64,000 bases of DNA, taken from assembly GCA_020637165.1 (NCBI GenBank), contig JACJWN010000007.1:229611-293610 (forward strand). Direction: 5' to 3'. The position numbers and the translations under genes were made by a program. Under the pieces are notes generated by a model that was given only the letters and a program-made list of their open reading frames with translations, was not told where the DNA came from and searched no databases. Shown here one piece after another: positions 1,993-12,987 of this stretch. The stretch is from Mycolicibacterium sp. Its GTDB lineage: Bacteria > Actinomycetota > Actinomycetes > Mycobacteriales > Mycobacteriaceae. The stretch's first letter is position 1; each line of letters starts with the position of its first letter.

Positions 1993-2160
1993 ATGAGCGT
2001 CGAGGTGCGCAGCCGGCAGGAGGCAGAAGCCACCGATGAAGCGGTATCACCGCGCTTTGAGATTTCCCCTCGGCTGGCGTTGGTCCTGCTGACCCTCACC
2101 ATGATCCTTACCGCGGTGATTGGGATTTTCCTGCACGGTCAGAGCTCCGTGGGACTGTAA
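1993..2160 (+). CDS. Small single-span membrane protein (55 aa)
   Basis: Short gene of 55 codons with an ATG start and a good AAGGAG ribosome site about ten bases upstream. The first 28 residues are charged and polar. A hydrophobic segment follows at about residues 29-47 (LALVLLTLTMILTAVIGIF) and then a short tail, which predicts one membrane helix with a cytoplasmic N-terminus. No family is recognised. It stands first in the polysaccharide locus, 43 bases before the next small membrane gene, so it may be an accessory subunit of the synthase complex. Function unknown. Confidence 0.6.
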   Translation: MSVEVRSRQEAEATDEAVSPRFEISPRLALVLLTLTMILTAVIGIFLHGQSSVGL

Positions 2161-2203
2161 GGAACCGAAGTTGCACGGCGCGCCAGAGGGCACTATAAAT
2201 TCA

Positions 2204-2407
2204 GTGTGGCAACGTTTCGTCGCGGTTCTGCGTGGGCTGCGGACTTGGCTTCAGGGCGGTTCCAGCGTCGGTCAGCTGACCCAGTACATAATCCTGGTAA
2301 CCGCGATCGTGGGGGTTCTGTATCTCGCGGTGACGTTCCTGTGGGGAAACGTCCACTTCGGCCAGCCGGTCATCTTCGACTCCTTCGCCGGCGACTCGGG
2401 CCGGTAA
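2204..2407 (+). CDS. Small membrane protein (67 aa), second microprotein of the locus
   Basis: About 67 residues if started at the GTG at 2204; the frame stays open to 2120, and a TTG at 2171 is another option. The N-terminus is basic (WQRFVAVLRGLRTWLQ) and a hydrophobic helix follows (YIILVTAIVGVLYLAVTFLW), then a short tail ending FAGDSGR. This predicts one membrane span. Its last 67 bases overlap the proposed start and signal sequence of the BcsB-like gene in another frame, suggesting coupled translation. No family is recognised. Confidence 0.5.
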   Translation: MWQRFVAVLRGLRTWLQGGSSVGQLTQYIILVTAIVGVLYLAVTFLWGNVHFGQPVIFDSFAGDSGR

Positions 2408-4311
2408 GCCTCGCCGGAGCTCTCGGCCCCGTCGTGCTGGCCGTGGCGCTGGTCGGTCCCGCGGCATCCGCCGGCGCCGCCCCCGATGACGTCGACCCCG
2501 TGCCCGGGTCCACCACCCTGTCTCTCGTGGATATGGGCGCCAGCACGCCGTTGGCCTTCTACGGTGAGCAGGGGACCGCGGAACTGACCTTTCCGGTGCC
2601 GCGTGGTTTGACACCAGTCGCCCTGAACGCGATCGTCGAGCTTCCCGTCAACGTTCGCGCCGGCATGATCACCGCGACCCAGGATGGTCGCACCATTGCC
2701 CGGGTGGCCCTGCCCGCGGACGACGAGGCCCCGATCACGGTCCCACTGGCCGGCGTATCGATCGTCGACAACGCGGCCACGGTCACCCTGCGCGCCTACT
2801 CCGTCCCCAACCCGGGAACCTGCCTTGACCCCACGAACCCGCTGCGATTGATCAACGGTGCGGTCGACTTCGCCGGGGAGGCGGCGCCACCGCGCACCGT
2901 CGCCGACTTCCTGCCGACGGTGCTGAAGAAACTCACCATCGCGATCCCATCTGACCCCACCAGAGCGGAGTCCGATGCAGCGGTCCGATTGGCGGCCGCG
3001 ATCGTCGCTCGCTACGGCCGCCAGCCCACGGCCGTCGCCGTCGTCCGCCTCGGGACCCCCTCGCCGCCGACGGCGCCGTTCGAGCGGCGGATCACCATCC
3101 AGCAGGGGCCGGACACCGGACTCGCCCTTCAGGGGCCGGACCTTCGTATCTCCGGCCCCGAACCGGATCTGATCAATCAGGCTCGCCTGCTCTCCAGCGA
3201 CATCTCCGAACTGGCGATCAGTTCCAAAGCTGTCGTCGGCCCCCTCAAGACCAGCCCCCAACTGCCCGGAAACGTCACCACATTGAGCGCGCTCGGGCAG
3301 CCCACCGTCTCGGCGGTCGCATTGTCGCCGCAGGTGGCCGTCGGACTCGACCAGACCCGGATCGGCCGGCCTGCCCGGGGTATCCGGGTGCACCTGGTGG
3401 GTTCGTACACCCCGCTTCCGCAGAGCATGAGTGGGCGGTTGACGGCCATTGTCGGACCGGAGACGATCGACACCTGGAGTGTCGACGACCGTGGGGTCAT
3501 TGACCGGTGGATCGACGTTCCGGACGCGCTCCTACAGCGCTACACGACGCTGGGGATCACGTTGAACATGGCGGGTAACACCGGGCGGTGCGGGGAGTTC
3601 CAGCCACTCACCCTGACCGTCAACGGGGACAGTGTGGTGGAGAGCCTGCCTGCCGTACCGCCGGTCCCCGGCGGGCTGCAGTCGATCCCGCAAGCGCTGA
3701 TGCCGCGGACGCTCATCGGAATCGGTCCCGACGCCTACGCCGACACCGTTCGTGCGGTGGGTGTCGCCGTCGCCCTGCAACGCCTCAGTGCACTGCCGAT
3801 CGACACCGCGGTGACCAGTGCGGACGAGGCCCTTCGGGCCAACGGCCCGGCAGTCATCGTCGCGGCCGACGGCTGGGATCATCCCGAGACCCCGCTGCCG
3901 GTCGATGCCGAGGGGGGCACGATCACCCTCAACGGTGTTCTGCCGGACGGGAAGCCCACCACATTGACCCTCGATCCGCAATTGGGATACGGATCGCTGC
4001 AGGCCTTCTTCGACGGCCGGCGCTCGCTGTTGGTGGCCACCTCCAATGCCGCGCCGGGGCAACTGGATGCCTTGTTGCGCTGGGTTGACGCCGATCCGCG
4101 GCGGTTCTCGAAACTCGACGGTGTCGCGGTGGTTGCGGCGCCGCGGGAGGAGCCGGTCGTTGTGCGGCCGCAACCCGGTGTCGCCGCGTCGGCGGAGAGT
4201 TCGGGACGCGCCAGTAAGGCCCTGCTGGCGCTGGGGGCGCTGTCCACGGCGGTGGTCGCGGTGGCGGCGGTGATCGCACTGCGCGCCCGGCGCACGCGAC
4301 CGGACGGCTGA
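2341..4311 (+). CDS. BcsB-like exported, membrane-anchored polysaccharide export/assembly protein
   Basis: About 656 residues. From the GTG at 2341 the N-terminus is strongly basic, followed by a hydrophobic stretch and an AxA-type cleavage region near PAASAGAAP, a good signal sequence. The long extracytoplasmic part has beta-rich repeats, including GTCLDPTNPLRLI and later GRCGEFQPLTL, in the arrangement of the BcsB cellulose-synthase subunit family. A C-terminal helix near residues 625-645 followed by RARRTR anchors it. Earlier in-frame starts give an N-terminus unlike an exported protein. A GT2 synthase two genes downstream supports a BcsA/BcsB-type pairing. Family assignment is by eye and moderate; the substrate is unknown. 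Confidence 0.6.
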   Translation: MGKRPLRPAGHLRLLRRRLGPVSLAGALGPVVLAVALVGPAASAGAAPDDVDPVPGSTTLSLVDMGASTPLAFYGEQGTAELTFPVPRGLTPVALNAIVELPVNVRAGMITATQDGRTIARVALPADDEAPITVPLAGVSIVDNAATVTLRAYSVPNPGTCLDPTNPLRLINGAVDFAGEAAPPRTVADFLPTVLKKLTIAIPSDPTRAESDAAVRLAAAIVARYGRQPTAVAVVRLGTPSPPTAPFERRITIQQGPDTGLALQGPDLRISGPEPDLINQARLLSSDISELAISSKAVVGPLKTSPQLPGNVTTLSALGQPTVSAVALSPQVAVGLDQTRIGRPARGIRVHLVGSYTPLPQSMSGRLTAIVGPETIDTWSVDDRGVIDRWIDVPDALLQRYTTLGITLNMAGNTGRCGEFQPLTLTVNGDSVVESLPAVPPVPGGLQSIPQALMPRTLIGIGPDAYADTVRAVGVAVALQRLSALPIDTAVTSADEALRANGPAVIVAADGWDHPETPLPVDAEGGTITLNGVLPDGKPTTLTLDPQLGYGSLQAFFDGRRSLLVATSNAAPGQLDALLRWVDADPRRFSKLDGVAVVAAPREEPVVVRPQPGVAASAESSGRASKALLALGALSTAVVAVAAVIALRARRTRPDG

Positions 4312-4312
4312 G

Positions 4313-5842
4313 GTGACCTCGACCGTCGCCAGCGCCGGACCGGACAGCGAACCGACGCCGGTTGCCACGCCTCCGCTGGACGTTCGGCCTGGATGGACAA
4401 TCGGCCGGCTCGCGGCACGCTGGCTTTTCATCGCCGCGATGACCGTGTTCGCCTTCCATGCGACGCTGCGCAGCCTGGTGGACAGCACCCGGGCCGGCAG
4501 CCTCAACGGTTTCGTGTGGCTCACGCCGGTCGCAGCGGTCCTCGCCGCCTTCGGCGTGGCCCGCCGCGAGCGGGTGGAACTGCCCATCCATGACCGTCAG
4601 ACCGACGTCATCATCGGCACCCTCGGTATGACCGTCGCGCTCATGGTGCAGGGGGTGCTGCTCAGCAGATATGCGCAGACCTTCCACCTGCTGCGGATCG
4701 ACCTGATCGCGATGTGGCTGTTCCTGGTGAGTTCCAGCGTCCTGCTGTTCGGCCTGCGTCCGGTGATCCGCTTCCGGTGGGTCTGGGCGATGATGCTGAT
4801 GTCCTTCCCGTTGGCCTACCACCTGTCGGTGATCGCCTTCGGCGGTAACCAGGTGGCCGCCGGTCTGGCATCTCTGGTGATCGCCGCTGCGGCGACCGCG
4901 GTCTCGGTCGGGCGCAACCCCGGCCGAGCCCTCACCGGTGCCGTCGGGGCCATGGCCGTGGGGTTGATCGTGTTGCTGGGCATGAACCGGCTCACGCCGG
5001 GCGCCCCGTTGCTGGCCTTCCAGATGATTCCGGCGCTGACCGCGATCGTGGTCGTCGGCAGCGTGCTGTTCCTGCAGGCCCGCCGGGGAATGTCGAAGCG
5101 GGTTCTGCAGCGGCGCATCGAACCGATCGCCAATGCGCAGGTGCTGGCCGGCGTCCCACTGGTCCTCGCGGTGGCGGTGCTGTTGTCGCTGGTGCGGGTT
5201 CCGGTGGTGGAATCCCCACCCGTTCTGATCAAGGAATTGACCTTCGGTCGCCCGCTGGCTCCTCCGGTCGGCTGGCACCAGACCGAGCAGACCGAATTCA
5301 CCTGGGCTAAGCGGATTTACGGGCACAACGCGACGCTGATCCGGCAGCGATTCGTCGCCGATTCCGGAGACCTCAGGTGGGACAAACGGGCGGCCCCGCG
5401 GACCGTGGTGGTCGACACCACCAGCACGTGGCGGCCGTTCTCGTTGCGCGTCTACCCGGCGGAAGTGCTCTATGACAAATCGGACAGCCGGATCAGCACC
5501 CCCCGACCGGTCGATCTCGGCCACGGAATCACCGGTTCGCTGGTGACCGTCGTCGACGACGGGCTGCTGCTCACCTGGAATTTCCTGTCGTGGACGTGGC
5601 GCAACGCGGACTCCGCGCAGCGGATCATGGTCGCGGCGGTGGACAACCATGAACCCGATGCGCCGTTTCCCGCACCGGTCGGCGGGCTGGTGGCCACCCT
5701 GAGAACGTTGATCATCGTGCTCTTCCGGGGCAATACGGCCACCTGGGACCAGGATCCGACCTTCAAGGACGAAGACCTGCTCACCGTATTCTCCCGCGCA
5801 CTCATCGAAGCCCAGTTGCGCCACGAGGAGCGCGGGTCGTGA
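4313..5842 (+). CDS. Multi-span membrane protein with exosortase/EpsI-like layout
   Basis: 509 residues. About eight hydrophobic segments span residues 35-300, and a soluble, probably extracytoplasmic domain follows at roughly 305-480. The membrane part (LLFGLRPVIRF with a following MSFPLAYH) loosely resembles exosortase. The soluble part (KRIYGHNATLIRQRFV and later GLLLTWNFLSW) loosely resembles the EpsI/DUF3485 domain found in exopolysaccharide operons. No cysteine is present, so the catalytic Cys of exosortases is absent and protease activity is not predicted. It starts one base after the BcsB-like stop and overlaps the GT2 gene by four bases. Function is inferred only from context. Confidence 0.5.
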   Translation: MTSTVASAGPDSEPTPVATPPLDVRPGWTIGRLAARWLFIAAMTVFAFHATLRSLVDSTRAGSLNGFVWLTPVAAVLAAFGVARRERVELPIHDRQTDVIIGTLGMTVALMVQGVLLSRYAQTFHLLRIDLIAMWLFLVSSSVLLFGLRPVIRFRWVWAMMLMSFPLAYHLSVIAFGGNQVAAGLASLVIAAAATAVSVGRNPGRALTGAVGAMAVGLIVLLGMNRLTPGAPLLAFQMIPALTAIVVVGSVLFLQARRGMSKRVLQRRIEPIANAQVLAGVPLVLAVAVLLSLVRVPVVESPPVLIKELTFGRPLAPPVGWHQTEQTEFTWAKRIYGHNATLIRQRFVADSGDLRWDKRAAPRTVVVDTTSTWRPFSLRVYPAEVLYDKSDSRISTPRPVDLGHGITGSLVTVVDDGLLLTWNFLSWTWRNADSAQRIMVAAVDNHEPDAPFPAPVGGLVATLRTLIIVLFRGNTATWDQDPTFKDEDLLTVFSRALIEAQLRHEERGS

Positions 5843-7317
5843 CCGGACCGGGCGCAGAACCGGACGCCGAACCCGACGAGGCCGTACGCCTCCGCGCGCT
5901 GTACCGGGCCGTGAACGGCTTGCGCGACGAGGATCCGGTGCATTCGGCGGCGAACGCGGTCGTCGGATGGCAGCGGGCGGTGCTGTGGATTCTGCTGGTC
6001 ATCACGGTGACCCTGATGGTGTGGCGACCGATGCACACCACCATCGCGCTGATCGCGCTGTCCACGCTCGCCTACATCCTCACCATGGTCGACCGGGTGC
6101 TGATCTTCCGCCAAGGGCTGGCCTATCGGGCGATCGTCGTCTCCGATGAGGAGGCCAGAGCCATCCCCGACGAACGGTTGCCGAGCTACACGATTCTGGT
6201 GCCGGCCTACAACGAGCCCGAGGTGGTCGGCGACCTCATGGGTGCGATGTTGCGGCTGGAGTATCCCCCGGACCGGATCCAGGTGCTGCTGTTGCTGGAG
6301 GCCGACGACGAGGTGACCATCGCCGCGGCCCGGGCGCACGCCGACTCGGACATCATCACGATCGTCGAGGTGCCGCCGGCCGACCCGCGCACCAAACCGA
6401 AAGCCTGCAACTACGGGTTGCAGTTCGCCACCGGTGAGATCGTCACCATCTACGACGCCGAGGACGCGCCGGAACCGTTGCAGTTGCGCAAGACCGTGGT
6501 CGCCTTCGAGAAGTCCCCGCCGGAGGTCATCTGCATCCAGTCCAAGCTCGCCTATCACAATGCTCACCAGAATCTGTTGACCGGCTGGTTCACCGCGGAG
6601 TACGGGCTGTGGTTCGGCTACCTCTTGCCGGGGATGATGCGCAGTGCGTCGCCGATCCCGCTGGGTGGCACCTCCAATCACCTGCGGCGTGACGTGCTGG
6701 TGGCGATCGGCGCATGGGATCCGTTCAACGTCACCGAGGACGCCGACCTGGGCTTGCGGATTCACGCCGAGGGGTTGCGGACCGCCGTGCTCGACTCGAC
6801 CACGCTGGAAGAGGCCAACAGCGACACCATCAACTGGATCCGGCAGCGCTCCCGCTGGTACAAGGGGTATTTGCAGACCTGGCTGGTGCACATCCGCCGG
6901 CCAGTGGTGATGTGGCGCTCGGTCGGCCCGCGCTCGTTCCTACGGCTGACCCTGATCCTGGCCGGAACCCCGATCATCGCGGTGCTCAACCTGGGTTTCT
7001 GGCTCATCACCATCCTCTGGTTCCTGGGCCAGCCCGCGCTCGTCGGCGCCGTGTTTCCCTGGTGGGTTTATTTTCCCGCGCTGGTGGCGCTGATACTGGG
7101 CAACGGAGCCACGCTGTACATGAACCTGATCGCGCTGCGCGAGGACGACCGCGCTGACCTGATCGTGCCGGCCCTGACCGTCCCGGGATTCTTCGTGCTG
7201 ATGAGCATCGCCGCCGCCAAGGGCGTTTACCAGCTGATCCGCACACCGTCCTACTGGGAGAAGACTTACCACGGCCTGGCGCGGCGACCGGAGGCCGAAC
7301 CGCCGGAGCCGTCATGA
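5839..7317 (+). CDS. Processive family-2 glycosyltransferase (cellulose/chitin synthase-like)
   Basis: 492 residues, GTG start overlapping the previous stop by four bases. Two N-terminal helices (about 47-90) are followed by a cytoplasmic GT2 domain (about 115-370) and about four C-terminal helices. Synthase signatures are present: PAYNEPEVV, EADDE, the metal-site DAED near 204, TEDADLG near 299 and the acceptor-site QRSRW near 335-339. This places it with BcsA/XagB-type enzymes that polymerise a beta-linked sugar from a nucleotide sugar and pass it through the membrane. No PilZ domain is visible, so direct c-di-GMP binding is not predicted. The sugar is unknown. Confidence 0.85.
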   Translation: MTGPGAEPDAEPDEAVRLRALYRAVNGLRDEDPVHSAANAVVGWQRAVLWILLVITVTLMVWRPMHTTIALIALSTLAYILTMVDRVLIFRQGLAYRAIVVSDEEARAIPDERLPSYTILVPAYNEPEVVGDLMGAMLRLEYPPDRIQVLLLLEADDEVTIAAARAHADSDIITIVEVPPADPRTKPKACNYGLQFATGEIVTIYDAEDAPEPLQLRKTVVAFEKSPPEVICIQSKLAYHNAHQNLLTGWFTAEYGLWFGYLLPGMMRSASPIPLGGTSNHLRRDVLVAIGAWDPFNVTEDADLGLRIHAEGLRTAVLDSTTLEEANSDTINWIRQRSRWYKGYLQTWLVHIRRPVVMWRSVGPRSFLRLTLILAGTPIIAVLNLGFWLITILWFLGQPALVGAVFPWWVYFPALVALILGNGATLYMNLIALREDDRADLIVPALTVPGFFVLMSIAAAKGVYQLIRTPSYWEKTYHGLARRPEAEPPEPS

Positions 7318-8987
7318 CCGGGATCAGCGACCGGCGACTGAAGATCCTCGCCTTCGCGGTGTCGTTCGCGGTATACACCGGTCTCGGTTACTGGCTTCAG
7401 GTCCGCCACGGATTCATTCTCGGTGATTCGCTCTCCCGGGTTTATGCGGCGCAGAGTGTGGTCTACAGCCGCGATCCGCACCTGGCGGCGATCGGTTTCA
7501 TCTTCACCCCGCTGACCGCCATGGTGGAGATTCCGTTCATCGCCTTGAGCCCGGTCTTCCCACCCCTGGCCGGTCGGGCCTTTTCCGGCAGCATCATTTC
7601 GGCGTTGTTCATGGCTGGAGCGGTCGTGCAGATCCTGTCGATGGGCGTCGACCGGGGACTGCCGCGCTGGTATTGCCTGACGATCACCGCGCTGTTCGCG
7701 GTGCATCCGATGATCCTGTTCTACGGATCCAACGGGATGAGCGAGGCGCCGTTCATCTTCTTCATCACCTGGGCGGTCCGCCGGCTCATCCTGTGGATGG
7801 TTGACGACGACGTGCACCACCTCGTCGCGGCCGGCGGGATCGCCATGGGACTGGCCTATCTCACCCGCTATGACGCCCTGGCCTGCATCGGGGTTGCCGG
7901 CGCTGTGGTCGCCACAACCACCTACCTGCGCGGGAGGCGCTTTCCGCGGGTCCGGCGCGCGCTGCTGGACCTGTTCATCATGAGCGGGCCGGGAGTGGTG
8001 GCCTTCCTCGGCTGGGCCATCGCGAGCTGGCTGATCACCGGGGAGGCCTTCGCGCAATTCACCTCGCAGTACGGCAACTCGGCGATCCTCGAACAGTCCG
8101 GCACCGCGCGGGTCGGGGTCGCCGCCGGTCTGGCGTTCGCCGGCGTCTGCATCCTGCTGCTGGCGCCGACCCTGGTTCCGCTGGGGGTGTTGGCCGGGAT
8201 CATCCGATGGCGCCGGCCGAAGGCGTCGATGCTGGTCCCGCCGGTGGCCCTCTTCGGTGCCGCGCTGAGCTTCCAGGCGCTCACCTACGCGATCGGGGGC
8301 ACCTTCCCATTCCTGCGCTTCTACATCATCGCGGTGCCGTTCGCCGCCTGCCTGGCACTGCTGGCGGTTCCCGACGGGGTGTTCGTCACGCCGGTCCGGC
8401 CGGGACGGCACGCGCTGGCGCCCAGTGCCGTTCCCTCCACCCGGACCCGTGGCGGCTTCGGCTGGGTTGCGGCGACGTTCGGGGTGTCGGTGGTCGTCGC
8501 AGTCTGGGGGATGACCCTGCCGCGCTATTCCCCGCAGGAGTACGCCCTCGACGCCGTGCTCTACCCCGACCCCGACAGCATCAGTCCGAAGAAGGAGGCC
8601 GAGCATCGCATCGCCCGGACGTTCTCGACCGAACGGTCCATCGCCCGCTACCTCGACGATATGAACCTGCCCCGCGGCTCGATCCTGGCTGACACGGTGT
8701 TCGGCTTCGCGATCATCGCCGCCTCCGATCGGCCCGCGACCTATGTCGTTCCCTCCGATCCGGATTTCGTCCGGATTCTGTCCGATCCTTCGACTTACGG
8801 TGTGGAGTACCTCCTCGCTGTGCCGCCGACCGGACGGGGGGTTTCCGACGCGCTCAACCAGCGCTATCCGACCCTGTATGACACCGGGGCCGACATCGCG
8901 ACCCTGGAACTTGAGATCCCCAACGACGGCGACGGCCAGCCGAACTGGCGGCTGTACCGCGTCAACGAACCTGTTCCCCAGCCCTGA
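7314..8987 (+). CDS. GT-C-like polytopic membrane glycosyltransferase
   Basis: 557 residues with about ten to twelve membrane helices and a soluble C-terminal part from about residue 425. The first extracytoplasmic loop carries acidic residues (GDSLSRVYAAQSVVYSRDP) in the place where GT-C enzymes that use lipid-linked sugars hold their catalytic acid. TRYDALA after the middle helices also fits that class. It overlaps the GT2 gene by four bases and closes the locus, so it may decorate the polymer or a lipid acceptor. Similarity to ArnT/PMT-type families is by layout rather than strong motif identity. Confidence 0.6.
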   Translation: MTGISDRRLKILAFAVSFAVYTGLGYWLQVRHGFILGDSLSRVYAAQSVVYSRDPHLAAIGFIFTPLTAMVEIPFIALSPVFPPLAGRAFSGSIISALFMAGAVVQILSMGVDRGLPRWYCLTITALFAVHPMILFYGSNGMSEAPFIFFITWAVRRLILWMVDDDVHHLVAAGGIAMGLAYLTRYDALACIGVAGAVVATTTYLRGRRFPRVRRALLDLFIMSGPGVVAFLGWAIASWLITGEAFAQFTSQYGNSAILEQSGTARVGVAAGLAFAGVCILLLAPTLVPLGVLAGIIRWRRPKASMLVPPVALFGAALSFQALTYAIGGTFPFLRFYIIAVPFAACLALLAVPDGVFVTPVRPGRHALAPSAVPSTRTRGGFGWVAATFGVSVVVAVWGMTLPRYSPQEYALDAVLYPDPDSISPKKEAEHRIARTFSTERSIARYLDDMNLPRGSILADTVFGFAIIAASDRPATYVVPSDPDFVRILSDPSTYGVEYLLAVPPTGRGVSDALNQRYPTLYDTGADIATLELEIPNDGDGQPNWRLYRVNEPVPQP

Positions 8988-9005: not shown

Positions 9006-11357
9006 ATGGCGGCCGAGTTCACAGGCAAGATCTCCCTCGACATCCGCGACTCCGAACCGGACTGGGGTCCCTTCGCCGCCCCCACCGCACCCGAGGGCGC
9101 TCCCAACGTGCTCTACGTCGTCTGGGACGACGTGGGCATCGCCACCTGGGATTGCTTCGGCGGGCTGGTGCAGATGCCGGCGATGAGCCGGATCGCAGAG
9201 CGGGGGGTCAAGCTGACCCAGTTCCACACCACCGCGCTGTGCTCGCCCACCCGGGCGTCCTTGCTGACCGGACGCAACGCGACGACGGTCGGGATGGCCA
9301 TGGTCGAGGAGTTCACCGAGGGATTCCCCGGCATCAACGGGCGCATCCCCGCCGACACCGCGCTGATCTCCGAGGTGCTGGCCGAACGCGGGTGGAACAC
9401 CTACTGCCTCGGCAAATGGCACCTGACTCCGCTGGAGGAGTCCAACCTCGCCTCCACCCGCCGGCACTGGCCGCTGTCGCGGGGCTTCGAGCGGTTCTAC
9501 GGATTCCTCGGCGGAGAGACCGACCAGTGGTACCCCGAACTCGTCTACGACAACCACCCGGTCGAGGCCCCGGCCACCCCGGAACAGGGCTATCACCTCT
9601 CCAAAGACCTCGCCGACAAGGCGATCGAGTTCATTCGCGACTCCACCCAGGCCGCCCCGGGCAAGCCGTGGTTCACCTACCTGTGTCCGGGAGCCGGGCA
9701 TGCGCCGCATCACGTGTTCAAGGAGTGGTCCGATCGCTACGCGGGCGCCTTCGACATGGGCTACGAGCGCTATCGCGACATCGTTCTGGAGAACCAGAAG
9801 AAGCTCGGGATCGTGCCCCCCGAAACGGAGCTGTCGCCGGTCAACCCCTACCTGGATGTCAAGGGTCCCAAGGGTGAACCATGGCCCCTGCAGGACACCG
9901 TGCGGCCCTGGGACTCGTTGTCCGACGAGGAGAAGCGCCTCTTCGCCCGGATGGCGGAGGTCTTCGCCGGGTTCCTGTCCTACACCGACGCCCAGATCGG
10001 CCGGGTCCTGGACTATCTGGAGGAATCAGGTCAGCTCGACAACACGCTTATCGTGGTGATCTCCGACAACGGCGCCAGCGGTGAGGGTGGGCCCAACGGG
10101 TCGGTCAACGAGGCCAAATTCTTCAACGGGTACATCGACACCGTCGAGGACAGCATGCGGTTCTACGACGAGCTGGGTTTGCCGTCGACCTACAACCATT
10201 ACCCGATCGGCTGGGCGATGGCGTTCAACACCCCGTACAAGCTCTACAAGCGCTACGCCTCCCACGAGGGCGGCATCGCCGACACCGCGATCGTCTCCTG
10301 GCCGGCCGGCATCGCCGCCCGCGGCGAGGTTCGGGACAACTACGTCAACGTCTGCGATATCGCCCCCACTGTCTACGACCTCTTGGGCATCGACCCGCCC
10401 GACACCGTCAAGGGCATCGCCCAGAAGCCGCTCGACGGGGTGAGTTTCGCAGCGGCCCTTGCCGATCCGAGTGCCGAGACCGGAAAGGACGTCCAGTTCT
10501 ACACCATGCTCGGCACCCGCGGGATCTGGCATCAGGGCTGGTTCGCGAACACGGTGCATGCGGCATCCCCCTCGGGCTGGTCGAACTTCGACAAAGATCG
10601 CTGGGAGCTCTATCACGTCGAGAACGACCGCAGTCAGTGCCACGACCTCGCCGCCGAGCAGCCGGAAAAGCTGGCCGAGATGCAGGCGCTGTGGTTCGCC
10701 GAAGCGGAGAAGTACAACGGTTTGCCGCTGGCCGACCTGAGCGTGTTCGAGATGATCGGGCGGTGGCGGCCGACGGTGGGCGGTGACCGGACCAGTTACA
10801 CCTACTACCCGAATACCGCTCCGGTGTCGGTGGGGGCGTGCGTGAACATCGCCGGCCGCTCCTTCTCGGTGCTGGCGGAGGTGAGCGTCCACAGTGCCGA
10901 TGTCAGCGGCGTCCTGCTCAAACAGGGCGCCGGGCACGGTGGCTACGTTCTGTTCGTCGAGGACGGGCGGCTTGCGTTCGTCTACAACTTCTTCGGTGAA
11001 TCCGAGCAGCGGGTGATCGCGCCAGATCCGGTGCCGCTCGGCGATCACATCCTCGGGGTCGGCTACGCGCGGACCGGGACACTGGAGGGCACGCATACCC
11101 CGATCGGCGTGGTCACTCTCTACGTCGACGGTGCCGCGGTGGCGACCCTTCCCGACGTCAAGGCGCACCCGTTCATCTTCGGGCTGGCGGGCGGGGGAGT
11201 CGAGGTGGGCCGCAACCTCGGTCAGCCGGTGTCTGCGGCCTACACCGCCCCGTTCCCGTTCACCGGCGGGACCATTGCCAAAGCGGTGGTCGACGTGTCG
11301 GGCGCCCCGTACGTCGACCTCGAGCGTGAGTTGGCGGTCGCCTTCGCCCGCGACTGA
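9006..11357 (+). CDS. atsA: Type I arylsulfatase
   Basis: 783-residue sulfatase that hydrolyses sulfate esters. The signature CSPTRASLLTGRN places Cys79 as the residue converted to formylglycine. The early metal ligands Asp41-Asp42 (VVWDDVG) and the later SDNGASGEGG stretch complete the calcium site. The C-terminal 200 residues form a second beta-rich domain common to long mycobacterial sulfatases. No signal peptide is visible, so a cytoplasmic enzyme is likely. The formylglycine-generating enzyme that would activate it is the next gene, and the same order occurs in M. tuberculosis (Rv0711-Rv0712). The substrate is unknown. Confidence 0.9.
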   Translation: MAAEFTGKISLDIRDSEPDWGPFAAPTAPEGAPNVLYVVWDDVGIATWDCFGGLVQMPAMSRIAERGVKLTQFHTTALCSPTRASLLTGRNATTVGMAMVEEFTEGFPGINGRIPADTALISEVLAERGWNTYCLGKWHLTPLEESNLASTRRHWPLSRGFERFYGFLGGETDQWYPELVYDNHPVEAPATPEQGYHLSKDLADKAIEFIRDSTQAAPGKPWFTYLCPGAGHAPHHVFKEWSDRYAGAFDMGYERYRDIVLENQKKLGIVPPETELSPVNPYLDVKGPKGEPWPLQDTVRPWDSLSDEEKRLFARMAEVFAGFLSYTDAQIGRVLDYLEESGQLDNTLIVVISDNGASGEGGPNGSVNEAKFFNGYIDTVEDSMRFYDELGLPSTYNHYPIGWAMAFNTPYKLYKRYASHEGGIADTAIVSWPAGIAARGEVRDNYVNVCDIAPTVYDLLGIDPPDTVKGIAQKPLDGVSFAAALADPSAETGKDVQFYTMLGTRGIWHQGWFANTVHAASPSGWSNFDKDRWELYHVENDRSQCHDLAAEQPEKLAEMQALWFAEAEKYNGLPLADLSVFEMIGRWRPTVGGDRTSYTYYPNTAPVSVGACVNIAGRSFSVLAEVSVHSADVSGVLLKQGAGHGGYVLFVEDGRLAFVYNFFGESEQRVIAPDPVPLGDHILGVGYARTGTLEGTHTPIGVVTLYVDGAAVATLPDVKAHPFIFGLAGGGVEVGRNLGQPVSAAYTAPFPFTGGTIAKAVVDVSGAPYVDLERELAVAFARD

Positions 11358-11369
11358 AGCTTTCTCGTC

Positions 11370-11426
11370 GAGTGAGTGACCACGCAGACGGTTTTTGAGA
11401 AGCGCTGTGCGTGGCTCCTCACTCAC
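11370..11426. repeat. Imperfect inverted repeat between atsA and the FGE gene
   Basis: GAGTGAGTGACCACGCA at 11370-11386 is complementary, with one small bulge, to TGCGTGGCTCCTCACTCAC at 11408-11426. The spacer of about 21 bases is AT-richer and holds a run of five T. It can form a long hairpin in the gap between sulfatase and activating enzyme and may be a terminator, a processing site or a repeat family member. It argues against the GTG at 11411 as a start, because that codon would be buried in the stem. Confidence 0.6.
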
Positions 11427-11446
11427 CGCGGCCTAGGCTCAAGAGT

Positions 11447-12334
11447 GTGCTGACCGACCTCGTCGAACTACCCGGTGGTTCGTTCCGGATGGGCTCGACG
11501 AGCTTCTATCCCGAGGAAGCCCCGATCCACACCGTGACCGTGGCGCCGTTCGCGATCGAGCGCCATCCGGTGACCAACGCCCAGTTCGCCGAGTTCGTGC
11601 GGGACACCGGGTACGTCACCGTCGCCGAACGGCCGCTGGACCCGGCGCTGTATCCCGGGGTGGCCCCCGGGGATCTGCTGCCCGGTGCTTTGGTCTTCCG
11701 CGCCACCGCGGGCCCGGTGAATCTGGAGGACTGGCGGCAGTGGTGGGACTGGGCGCCCGGAGCGTACTGGCGCCGTCCCTTCGGCGAGGGCAGCGACATC
11801 GCCGGTAAAGACGATCACCCCGTCGTTCAGGTCGCCTACCCCGATGCCGGGGCCTACGCCGCCTGGGCCGGGCGCCGGCTGCCGACCGAGGCCGAGTTCG
11901 AGTACGCCGCGCGCGGCGGGGCGTCGAGCACCTACCCGTGGGGCGAGGACCCGCAACCGGGCGGGACGCTGATGGCCAACACCTGGCAGGGCCGCTTTCC
12001 GTACCGCAACGACGGCGCCCGGGGCAACGGAACCGCGCGCTGGACCGGCACCTCGCCGGTGGGCACCTTCCCGCCGAACGGCTACGGCCTGGTCGACATG
12101 ATCGGCAACGTCTGGGAGTGGACGACCACCAAGTATTCGGGCCACCACCAGATGCAGCCGTCGAACTCCTGCTGCCCCAAGTCCGCCGAACCCGACCCGT
12201 CGCTGATCCAGACCCTCAAGGGCGGCTCGCACCTGTGCGCCCCGGAGTACTGCCACCGCTATCGGCCCGCCGCGCGCTCGCCGCAGTCCCAGGACAGTTC
12301 CACCACCCACATCGGCTTCCGCTGCGTGGCCTGA
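11447..12334 (+). CDS. Formylglycine-generating enzyme (sulfatase activator)
   Basis: About 295 residues, FGE-sulfatase family. It oxidises the active-site Cys of sulfatases to formylglycine. Visible signatures are the N-terminal LPGGSFRMGS, the RLPTEAEFEYAARGG block, GNVWEW, and the paired active-site cysteines in GGSHLCAPEYCHRYR (about C264 and C269), which match the copper-binding pair of characterised enzymes. The start is set at the GTG at 11447 (MLTDLVELPGG), the form recalled for mycobacterial homologues; the GTG at 11411 lies within a hairpin. It directly follows the arylsulfatase it presumably matures. Confidence 0.92.
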   Translation: MLTDLVELPGGSFRMGSTSFYPEEAPIHTVTVAPFAIERHPVTNAQFAEFVRDTGYVTVAERPLDPALYPGVAPGDLLPGALVFRATAGPVNLEDWRQWWDWAPGAYWRRPFGEGSDIAGKDDHPVVQVAYPDAGAYAAWAGRRLPTEAEFEYAARGGASSTYPWGEDPQPGGTLMANTWQGRFPYRNDGARGNGTARWTGTSPVGTFPPNGYGLVDMIGNVWEWTTTKYSGHHQMQPSNSCCPKSAEPDPSLIQTLKGGSHLCAPEYCHRYRPAARSPQSQDSSTTHIGFRCVA

Positions 12335-12618: not shown

Positions 12619-12987
12619 GTGATTCAGCAGGAATCGCGGCTCAAGGTTGCCGACAACACCGGTGCCAAGGAGATCTTGTGCATCCGCGTGCTGGGCGGCT
12701 CGTCGCGGCGCTACGCCGGCATCGGCGACATCATCGTGGCCACCGTCAAGGATGCGATCCCGGGCGGCAACGTCAAGCGCGGCGATGTCGTCAAGGCCGT
12801 GGTGGTGCGCACCGTCAAGGAGCGTCGCCGGCCGGACGGCAGCTACATCAAGTTCGACGAGAACGCCGCGGTGATCATCAAGGCCGACAATGACCCGCGC
12901 GGGACCCGCATCTTCGGCCCGGTCGGCCGTGAGCTGCGCGAGAAGCGCTTCATGAAAATCGTCTCGCTGGCCCCGGAGGTGCTGTAG
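12619..12987 (+). CDS. rplN: 50S ribosomal protein L14
   Basis: 122 residues, the usual L14 length. It binds 23S rRNA at the subunit interface near L19. The sequence starts [18 protein letters not shown] and ends [11 protein letters not shown], both typical. The GTG at 12619 follows a GAGGGAGA ribosome site; upstream in-frame starts would only add an unrelated leader. It is the first gene of the spc-type operon here and is followed with no gap by rplX. The S10-type operon that usually precedes it is not in the window; the sulfatase pair lies between. Confidence 0.97.

Follow-up and report, generated by a model that had tools for sequence, protein, structure and literature searches.

A mycobacterial operon unites a BcsB homologue and a synthase-like GT2 with an exosortase homologue that lacks its catalytic residues

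Introduction

What would a mycobacterium build with an exported protein related to BcsB, a membrane glycosyltransferase of family 2 (GT2), a GT-C-like glycosyltransferase and an exosortase homologue, all encoded in one row? The question is raised by an operon in a stretch of 64,000 nucleotides, here called the window, from a Mycolicibacterium sp. genome (GenBank assembly GCA_020637165.1, contig JACJWN010000007.1, positions 229,611 to 293,610, forward strand). Published excerpts describe as unknown the genes responsible for the cellulose and poly-N-acetylglucosamine (PNAG) that mycobacterial cultures and biofilms are reported to contain; putative cellulose-synthase components of M. neoaurum and M. 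cosmeticum are already in print (PMC6364259 and PMC7952908, in part). No paper on this operon was among the matches listed from the portions of the open-licence literature searched, and exosortase, Mycobacterium and glycosyltransferase in combination returned nothing related there.

A first-pass annotation of the window had proposed a Bcs-like exopolysaccharide locus and connected it with cellulose. The exopolysaccharide part is sustained by a BcsB homologue standing beside a GT2 of membrane-synthase type; the connection with cellulose is not, as the GT2 lies outside the BcsA clade, lacks PilZ and has other acidic motifs. We think it reasonably probable, from homology and gene content, that the GT2 polymerises and threads a non-cellulose exopolysaccharide, which the BcsB-like protein would guide and the GT-C-like enzyme would decorate, with the exosortase homologue as a structural subunit.

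Results and discussion

A BcsB homologue adjoins a synthase-like GT2 of a distinct subfamily

Profile comparison firmly identifies the exported protein as a BcsB homologue, in agreement with the first-pass call of a BcsB-like exported subunit. A diverse alignment of 21 relatives (A6) was compared in hhalign with five canonical BcsB proteins (that of E. coli and four plasmid-borne ones); the match covered 541 columns, most of the protein length, with E 4e-16 and a probability of 98.7. Comparison with a single BcsB-annotated protein of Geobacillus, which itself exceeds the Pfam BcsB cut-off, gave E 7e-14. Another alignment (A3) against E. coli BcsB alone gave E 0.033 (probability 1.5), and the window copy by itself has no family match in single-sequence searches, Pfam BcsB included. 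With E allowed up to 1, the Pfam BcsB model (PF03170) picked up 18 of 55 relatives (2.9e-7 at best), gave the BcsB of locus L161 17.3 bits, below the cut-off of 21, and matched none of the 61 genomes in which it was searched genome-wide. Because relatives do match and the A6 profile alignment is strong, we regard this single model as insensitive here. Hydropathy peaks only at 18-49 and 624-650 of the protein, corresponding to a signal-peptide-like start and a single C-terminal transmembrane (TM) segment. Anchored by that C-terminal helix, the protein may guide the chain outside the membrane, a role suggested by homology at the sequence level.

By its scores, motifs and tree position, the GT2 (492 aa) is a synthase-like membrane enzyme of a distinct subfamily and not a BcsA. 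Its assignment to the membrane-synthase type holds: the GT2 model scored 71-99 bits with BcsA, PgaC and NodC, 44 with NfrB and at most 28 with the nine other GT2 rows of the same genome, and three to four hydrophobic segments follow the catalytic part. The full set of D, TED and QxxRW motifs credited to it earlier is present only in part. TED (in VTEDADL) and QRSRW are there, as is PSYWEKTYHG, whereas the first Asp motif reads LEADD and the metal motif YDAEDAP, a DAED form common to the window GT2 and E. coli NfrB. To judge from its family and from TED and QxxRW, the enzyme would polymerise a nucleotide sugar at the inner face of the membrane and pass the chain through its own membrane helices.

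These results bear directly on whether the operon is the missing mycobacterial cellulose synthase, with the GT2 as BcsA and the exported protein as BcsB. The BcsB homology fits, the PDB chains closest to the GT2 in sequence belong to cellulose synthase subunit A (E 5e-13, residues 105-363, the catalytic part only), its best NCBIfam match is CelA, and cellulose has been reported in M. tuberculosis biofilms (PMC4848537, in part). We nevertheless hold this identity to be improbable. The CelA score is 81 bits against a cut-off of 699, no PilZ domain was matched in Pfam, and LEADD and DAED stand where five BcsA proteins have DDG and DCDH or DADH; those five form a separate clade, supported at 100, that excludes the window GT2. 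M. tuberculosis, in which the cellulose was reported, is moreover described as having neither BcsA nor BcsB (PMC6364259 and PMC7952908, in part). With neither PilZ nor, in NCBIfam, an MshE-type domain listed for the window GT2, control by cyclic di-GMP (c-di-GMP) through the synthase was also rejected.

A quick 36-row tree, in which 13 of 33 inner branches are open, groups the window GT2 with those of type 1 and type 2 operons (see below) and with three exosortase-linked GT2 enzymes (SH-aLRT 95); the GT2 enzymes of Geobacillus, Frigoribacterium and a Hyphomicrobiales plasmid are nearby. The tree took in four of the nine other GT2 rows of the window's own genome and left out L169, L172, L174, L175 and L176. 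Three of the four fall with PgaC and NodC, and L173, on a very long branch, is unplaced near NfrB. L174 scores 14.9 bits with the GT2 model; its start looks like that of a polyprenyl-phosphate-mannose synthase. Neither of the two outcomes that the first-pass annotation had named as telling against it, a protein without a BcsB-like fold or a GT2 grouping with lipid-linked mannosyltransferases, appears from these sequence comparisons.

The GT-C-like enzyme and a membrane-linked alternative

The fourth large gene had been annotated as a GT-C-like enzyme, and that call stands tentatively. Its PMT match lies just under the cut-off (Table 1). A PMT_2 scan of six relatives placed that of L107 over the cut-off (27.8 against 26.1), three under it and two without a match, and the GT-C copy of the actinobacterial locus L151 also matches below cut-off. 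Of 22 aligned GT-C-like rows, at least 21 conserve D38 and E144. The enzyme, the least secure of the enzyme assignments, might add side sugars outside the membrane from a polyprenyl-phosphate-sugar donor.

GT-C enzymes use polyprenyl-linked donors, and this would suit a different product, a membrane-linked glycan (lipoglycan or protein glycan) in place of a free polymer, for which the GT2 would make a polyprenyl-linked sugar or short chain and the GT-C enzyme would transfer it. We consider such a product unlikely. The atypical acidic motifs of the GT2 and the lack of a recognised export channel speak for it, but the GT2 combines QxxRW and TED with the three to four hydrophobic segments after its catalytic part, its model prefers BcsA, PgaC and NodC, and then NfrB, to the other GT2 enzymes of the genome, and BcsB is tied to polymer passage in known systems (PMC4125290, in part).

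An exosortase homologue under selection without its catalytic residues

The protein encoded between the BcsB homologue and the GT2 (Xrt-like) has no direct exosortase family match in Pfam or NCBIfam, and of the 26 proteins in its alignment five give a weak match to one exosortase model (best E 0.01). A class-wide search supplied a bridge, a protein of L151 (genome G207) that matches both the Xrt-like alignment and Pfam Exosortase_EpsH. In hhalign the 26-row Xrt-like alignment (A4) matched this exosortase at E 1.1e-20 over 456 columns, and the alignment is full length, N-terminal helices and C-terminal domain included. The L151 protein is over the cut-offs of PF09721 and of TIGR04178, the NCBIfam exosortase/archaeosortase signature (45.9 bits against 23), and carries SACAG (Cys235), NIGRI and GLHPF, which we take to hold the Cys, Arg and His of the catalytic triad. 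Of the earlier label, exosortase/EpsI-like, the first half is therefore upheld through L151 and the second is not: EpsI (DUF3485) was matched neither by the window protein or the L151 exosortase (both in Pfam and NCBIfam) nor by the 26 relatives (NCBIfam). An EpsI identity was rejected for the C-terminal domain, which is without any family match.

The window protein contains no cysteine at all. Eleven of the 26 aligned homologues, the window's included, have none at window-aligned columns; the commonest Cys column, 246, is occupied in 10 of the 26 and has no C-S/A-G context; and the core Arg and His of the triad are likewise unmatched in the alignments of the window protein. The gene is under purifying selection despite the lost catalytic residues, with a ratio of nonsynonymous to synonymous substitution rates (dN/dS) of 0.08-0.25 in eight of nine pairs. 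The ninth pair, L096-L099, has 0.38 and probably compares different tandem copies. A second exosortase homologue lies upstream in L099, L100, L101, L106 and L109, so that bcsB sits between two copies there.

A sorting enzyme that works with another nucleophile, in an operon that anchors surface proteins to a glycan, seems very improbable to us on these data, even though the protein is akin over its full length to a triad-bearing exosortase whose locus encodes three PEAP-tailed proteins, and even with the scattered Cys at column 246. A search for PEP-CTERM-like tails with one pattern found none in the window and four matches in 188 loci, three of them in L151; the fourth, in L084, looks spurious. 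An active exosortase is unsupported for the window protein, which has no Cys. The homologue would no longer cut proteins and may instead serve as a membrane scaffold or substrate-binding subunit.

The operon seems old in mycobacteria

A survey across mycobacterial genomes, which the first-pass annotation had called for, found a BcsB-like match in at least 119 of 198 genus genomes and an Xrt-like match in at least 50, all of them within the 119. These are lower bounds, with the best few candidates per genome scored and relatedness uncorrected. Among the 50, the best E is below 1e-80 in 37 (type 1) and weaker in 13. At least 19 of 296 class genomes, the genus included, have a BcsB-like match and at least 12 an Xrt-like one. 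The loci compared gene by gene are those of the best 80 of 115 relatives, found with a closer BcsB set (A2), and lean to type 1. All four large genes occur in 26 of the best 80, among them L046, a near-identical record of the window's own genome; three more loci (L047, L048, L064) carry the Xrt-like gene on stretches that end inside the operon. The gene order is kept across species, and 32 of the 33 pairs compared across the four genes have a dN/dS of at most 0.25.

The first-pass annotation had thought that the locus looks acquired. We rejected recent horizontal acquisition on three grounds. In GC content (0.65-0.70) the locus matches its flanks. In 22 of the 29 Xrt-like-bearing loci the ribosomal gene rpsQ precedes bcsB by 0.4 to 7.8 kb, and in 10 of the 51 without Xrt-like by 0.4 to 3.1 kb. 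The BcsB tree, built with FastTree and rooted at the midpoint, has long branches flagged; in it the operon-borne sequences are basal, with the lone ones nested inside. An atsA relative on the plus strand is in the flank of 12 of the 29. For L047, L048, L049 and L092, each with less than 2.7 kb of upstream sequence, rpsQ was not seen. The operon thus seems old in mycobacteria, often between the S10 and spc ribosomal operons, and lost piecemeal to leave a lone BcsB. Speaking against the rejection of recent acquisition, there is no rpsQ in the 7.7 kb upstream in L052 or the 10 kb upstream in the Williamsia loci L107 and L115, so the ribosomal site is not shared by all.

Could the operon be a decaying remnant without present function? 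Its distribution is patchy, xrt, gt2 and gtc are repeatedly absent, and in four of the 37 genomes where the exosortase homologue scores highly, a TGA interrupts the match. The dN/dS values, the intact frames in the window and the constant gene order across species make decay scarcely credible.

Several loci hold BcsB in other company. The slow growers M. scrofulaceum and M. colombiense, for example, keep a lone BcsB gene that has a polysaccharide flippase and a gene for a priming sugar transferase in its neighbourhood, an arrangement seen also in L070 (about 2.4-12.9 kb) and loci like it. A polysaccharide deacetylase relative is nearby in 20 of the 51 loci without Xrt-like, against 0 of the 29 with it. 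The window's own genome has a second BcsB-like copy, 44% identical (L127, 8393-16898), near a GH16 protein, a flippase-like protein and a group 1 glycosyltransferase. BcsB-like genes also accompany a GT2 of another branch in L157 (221-4866), L159 (8179-11423) and L160 (4717-8248); that of L157 adjoins a UDP-GlcNAc 2-epimerase (PF02350, 1.6e-89), and a polymer of ManNAc might be the product there.

A second operon type and kin outside mycobacteria

A diverged mycobacterial form, type 2 (L161-L163), has the order xrt-gt2-bcsB-gtc, and its Xrt-like and GT2 proteins are 23-25% and 45-49% identical to those of the window. By sequence comparison, the mycobacterial operon is also kin to actinobacterial loci in which an exosortase lies beside the same GT2 and GT-C. 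A Pfam scan of 148 class genomes gave six exosortase matches, of which three exceed the cut-off and five adjoin a GT2 that matches the window GT2 model (148-697 bits). The sixth, in L146 (18.4 bits, below cut-off, on a 3.3 kb stretch), has no GT2 and looks spurious. L151, L153 and L166 have xrt-gt2-gtc, and the stretches examined there contain no BcsB match; the Xrt-like match of L153 is weak (E 3.4e-5), and the L166 stretch begins inside xrt. In L145 and L147 an exosortase-like stretch without a C-S/A/G/T-G motif stands beside a GT2 (574 and 556 bits).

L151 (G207, contig C39, 3226-17573) shares with the window the row xrt-GT2-GT-C in the same order and a GT2 50.5% identical over 481 aligned positions. 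Unlike the window, it has an intact exosortase triad, PEAP-type tails on three proteins and no BcsB match. Each of the three, one of which has a pro-kumamolisin domain, ends in PEAP followed by a helix and a basic tail, resembling PEP-CTERM signals, and none is named by NCBIfam.

Further afield, a conjugative plasmid of Geobacillus stearothermophilus (pEF60063-1; L177, 5144-11881) carries a row of nucleotidyltransferase, BcsB, GT2 and GT39. It shares with the window a BcsB, a GT2 with 41% identity and a protein annotated as GT39, whose PMT_2 match falls just below the cut-off. It differs in the N-terminal c-di-GMP-binding MshE-type domain on its GT2, and no exosortase homologue was detected in the stretch. 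With the three genes in one row there, the set of BcsB, GT2 and GT-C recurs.

A probable exopolysaccharide machine

The co-occurrence of Xrt-like with BcsB-like, the BcsB homology, selection, the recurrence of BcsB with GT2 and GT-C, and the type 2 operon all argue for a non-cellulose exopolysaccharide made by the four proteins together. Several observations weigh against it. The acidic motifs of the GT2 are unlike those in the BcsA, PgaC and NodC rows, which leaves its processivity putative; the GT-C call draws on matches near or under cut-offs, and the GT39 protein of Geobacillus gave no convincing alignment with the GT-C-like protein of the window (BLASTP E 0.042). No export channel or regulator was recognised within the operon. 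Finally, 51 of the 80 loci, several of them cut by contig ends, have BcsB without Xrt-like, so BcsB need not work with this GT2.

A more specific history would make the exosortase and GT2/GT-C one machine: in G207-like actinobacteria the exosortase would attach the PEAP-tailed proteins to a glycan made by the GT2 and GT-C, and mycobacteria would have dropped the attachment, made the exosortase non-catalytic and recruited BcsB for export. We rate this history as rather unlikely. If true, it would name the acceptor of an exosortase and give the exosortase fold a role in polysaccharide export. Apart from that history, selection has retained a pseudo-exosortase next to a glycan synthase, an observation relevant to where exosortases deliver their proteins, and the four genes, conserved and selected, are a candidate for a mycobacterial matrix polysaccharide.

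Layout of the locus and its neighbours

The four large genes are tightly packed in the order bcsB-like, xrt-like, gt2, gtc-like (Table 1). The first ends at 4311 and the next starts at 4313; the xrt/gt2 and gt2/gtc overlaps are four bases each. In all four, GC content at third codon positions (GC3) is 0.79-0.89, against 0.45-0.56 at second positions (GC2). As annotated before, the locus comes directly before atsA, 18 bases after gtc. From left to right, the site consists of ribosomal genes, the last of them rpsQ, then a pair of opposite-strand genes, regulators, the operon, atsA, fge and rplN, so that the locus sits between two ribosomal-protein operons. Neither BcsC nor BcsZ was found among the eight window proteins scanned against Pfam.

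Table 1. Genes of the operon and its right-hand neighbours in the window
Feature	Coordinates	Strand	Evidence or remarks
Small one-TM protein, 55 aa	1993..2160	+	GC3 0.73 / GC2 0.43
Small one-TM open reading frame (ORF), 77 aa, doubtful	2174..2407	+	Overlaps BcsB-like start; GC3 0.76 / GC2 0.45
BcsB-like exported protein	2341..4311	+	BcsB-homologous region between a signal-peptide-like start and the one C-terminal TM
Exosortase homologue without catalytic Cys/Arg/His (pseudo-exosortase), with C-terminal domain matching no family	4313..5842	+	
Membrane GT2, synthase-like	5839..7317	+	Pfam PF13641 1.5e-26, tree, motifs
GT-C-like multi-TM glycosyltransferase	7314..8987	+	PMT PF02366 21.7 bits, below cut-off 22.7
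atsA-like sulfatase (neighbour, not core)	9006..11357	+	PF00884 4.2e-64
Formylglycine-generating-enzyme-like protein, fge (neighbour)	11411..12334	+	PF03781 1.9e-83
rplN, first gene of the next ribosomal-protein operon (right border of site)	12619..12987	+	Named from its protein sequence; served for synteny

The locus had been described as six genes. Its four large members are in place on the plus strand, and the two small frames have little or no backing. The first of these has tblastn relatives (E <0.01) upstream of bcsB in L052 and L061 only, besides L046, and look-alike one-TM ORFs were seen by eye in L047-L049; its product may belong to the operon, in the closest lineage alone. The second has no tblastn relative at E <0.6 outside L046.

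Upstream of the operon, at 9-1868, are STAS, two RsbW-like and LuxR-type genes, named by eye. Relatives of some of them precede the operon in L047 and L049, and a LuxR-type relative does so in L048. Control of the operon by a stress sigma factor is possible from this neighbourhood.

Comparison with known systems

Exosortase/PEP-CTERM systems (EpsH, XrtA and others) resemble the window in placing a homologous membrane protein in a polysaccharide gene setting. The window departs from them in the loss of Cys, Arg and His, in having no PEP-CTERM-like tails near the operon and in the missing EpsI match. The founding PEP-CTERM paper reported that its data set contained no Actinomycetes example (PMC1569441, in part).

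BcsA-BcsB is matched by the window in that a BcsB homologue adjoins a membrane GT2 with TED and QxxRW. Differences lie in the GT2, which is outside the BcsA clade, has no PilZ and carries other acidic motifs, and in the extra pseudo-exosortase and GT-C.

Among Gram-positive systems, ydaJKLMN of Bacillus subtilis is like the window in that B. subtilis has a Pfam BcsB match, which we take to be YdaN; the exopolysaccharide (EPS) of that operon is thought, in published excerpts, to contain alpha-D-Gal and/or GalNAc. Listeria pssA-E comes close as well, with a BcsB orthologue and a non-BcsA GT2 in a Gram-positive bacterium (PMC4125290, in part). As far as their excerpted descriptions go, both operons are set apart from the window by encoding c-di-GMP receptors, PssE and YdaK, and by including no exosortase homologue. 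The composition of the polymer of the Listeria pss operon was held not to be predictable, and pssA-E is a precedent for BcsB and a GT2 in an EPS locus whose polymer is not identified as cellulose (PMC4125290, in part).

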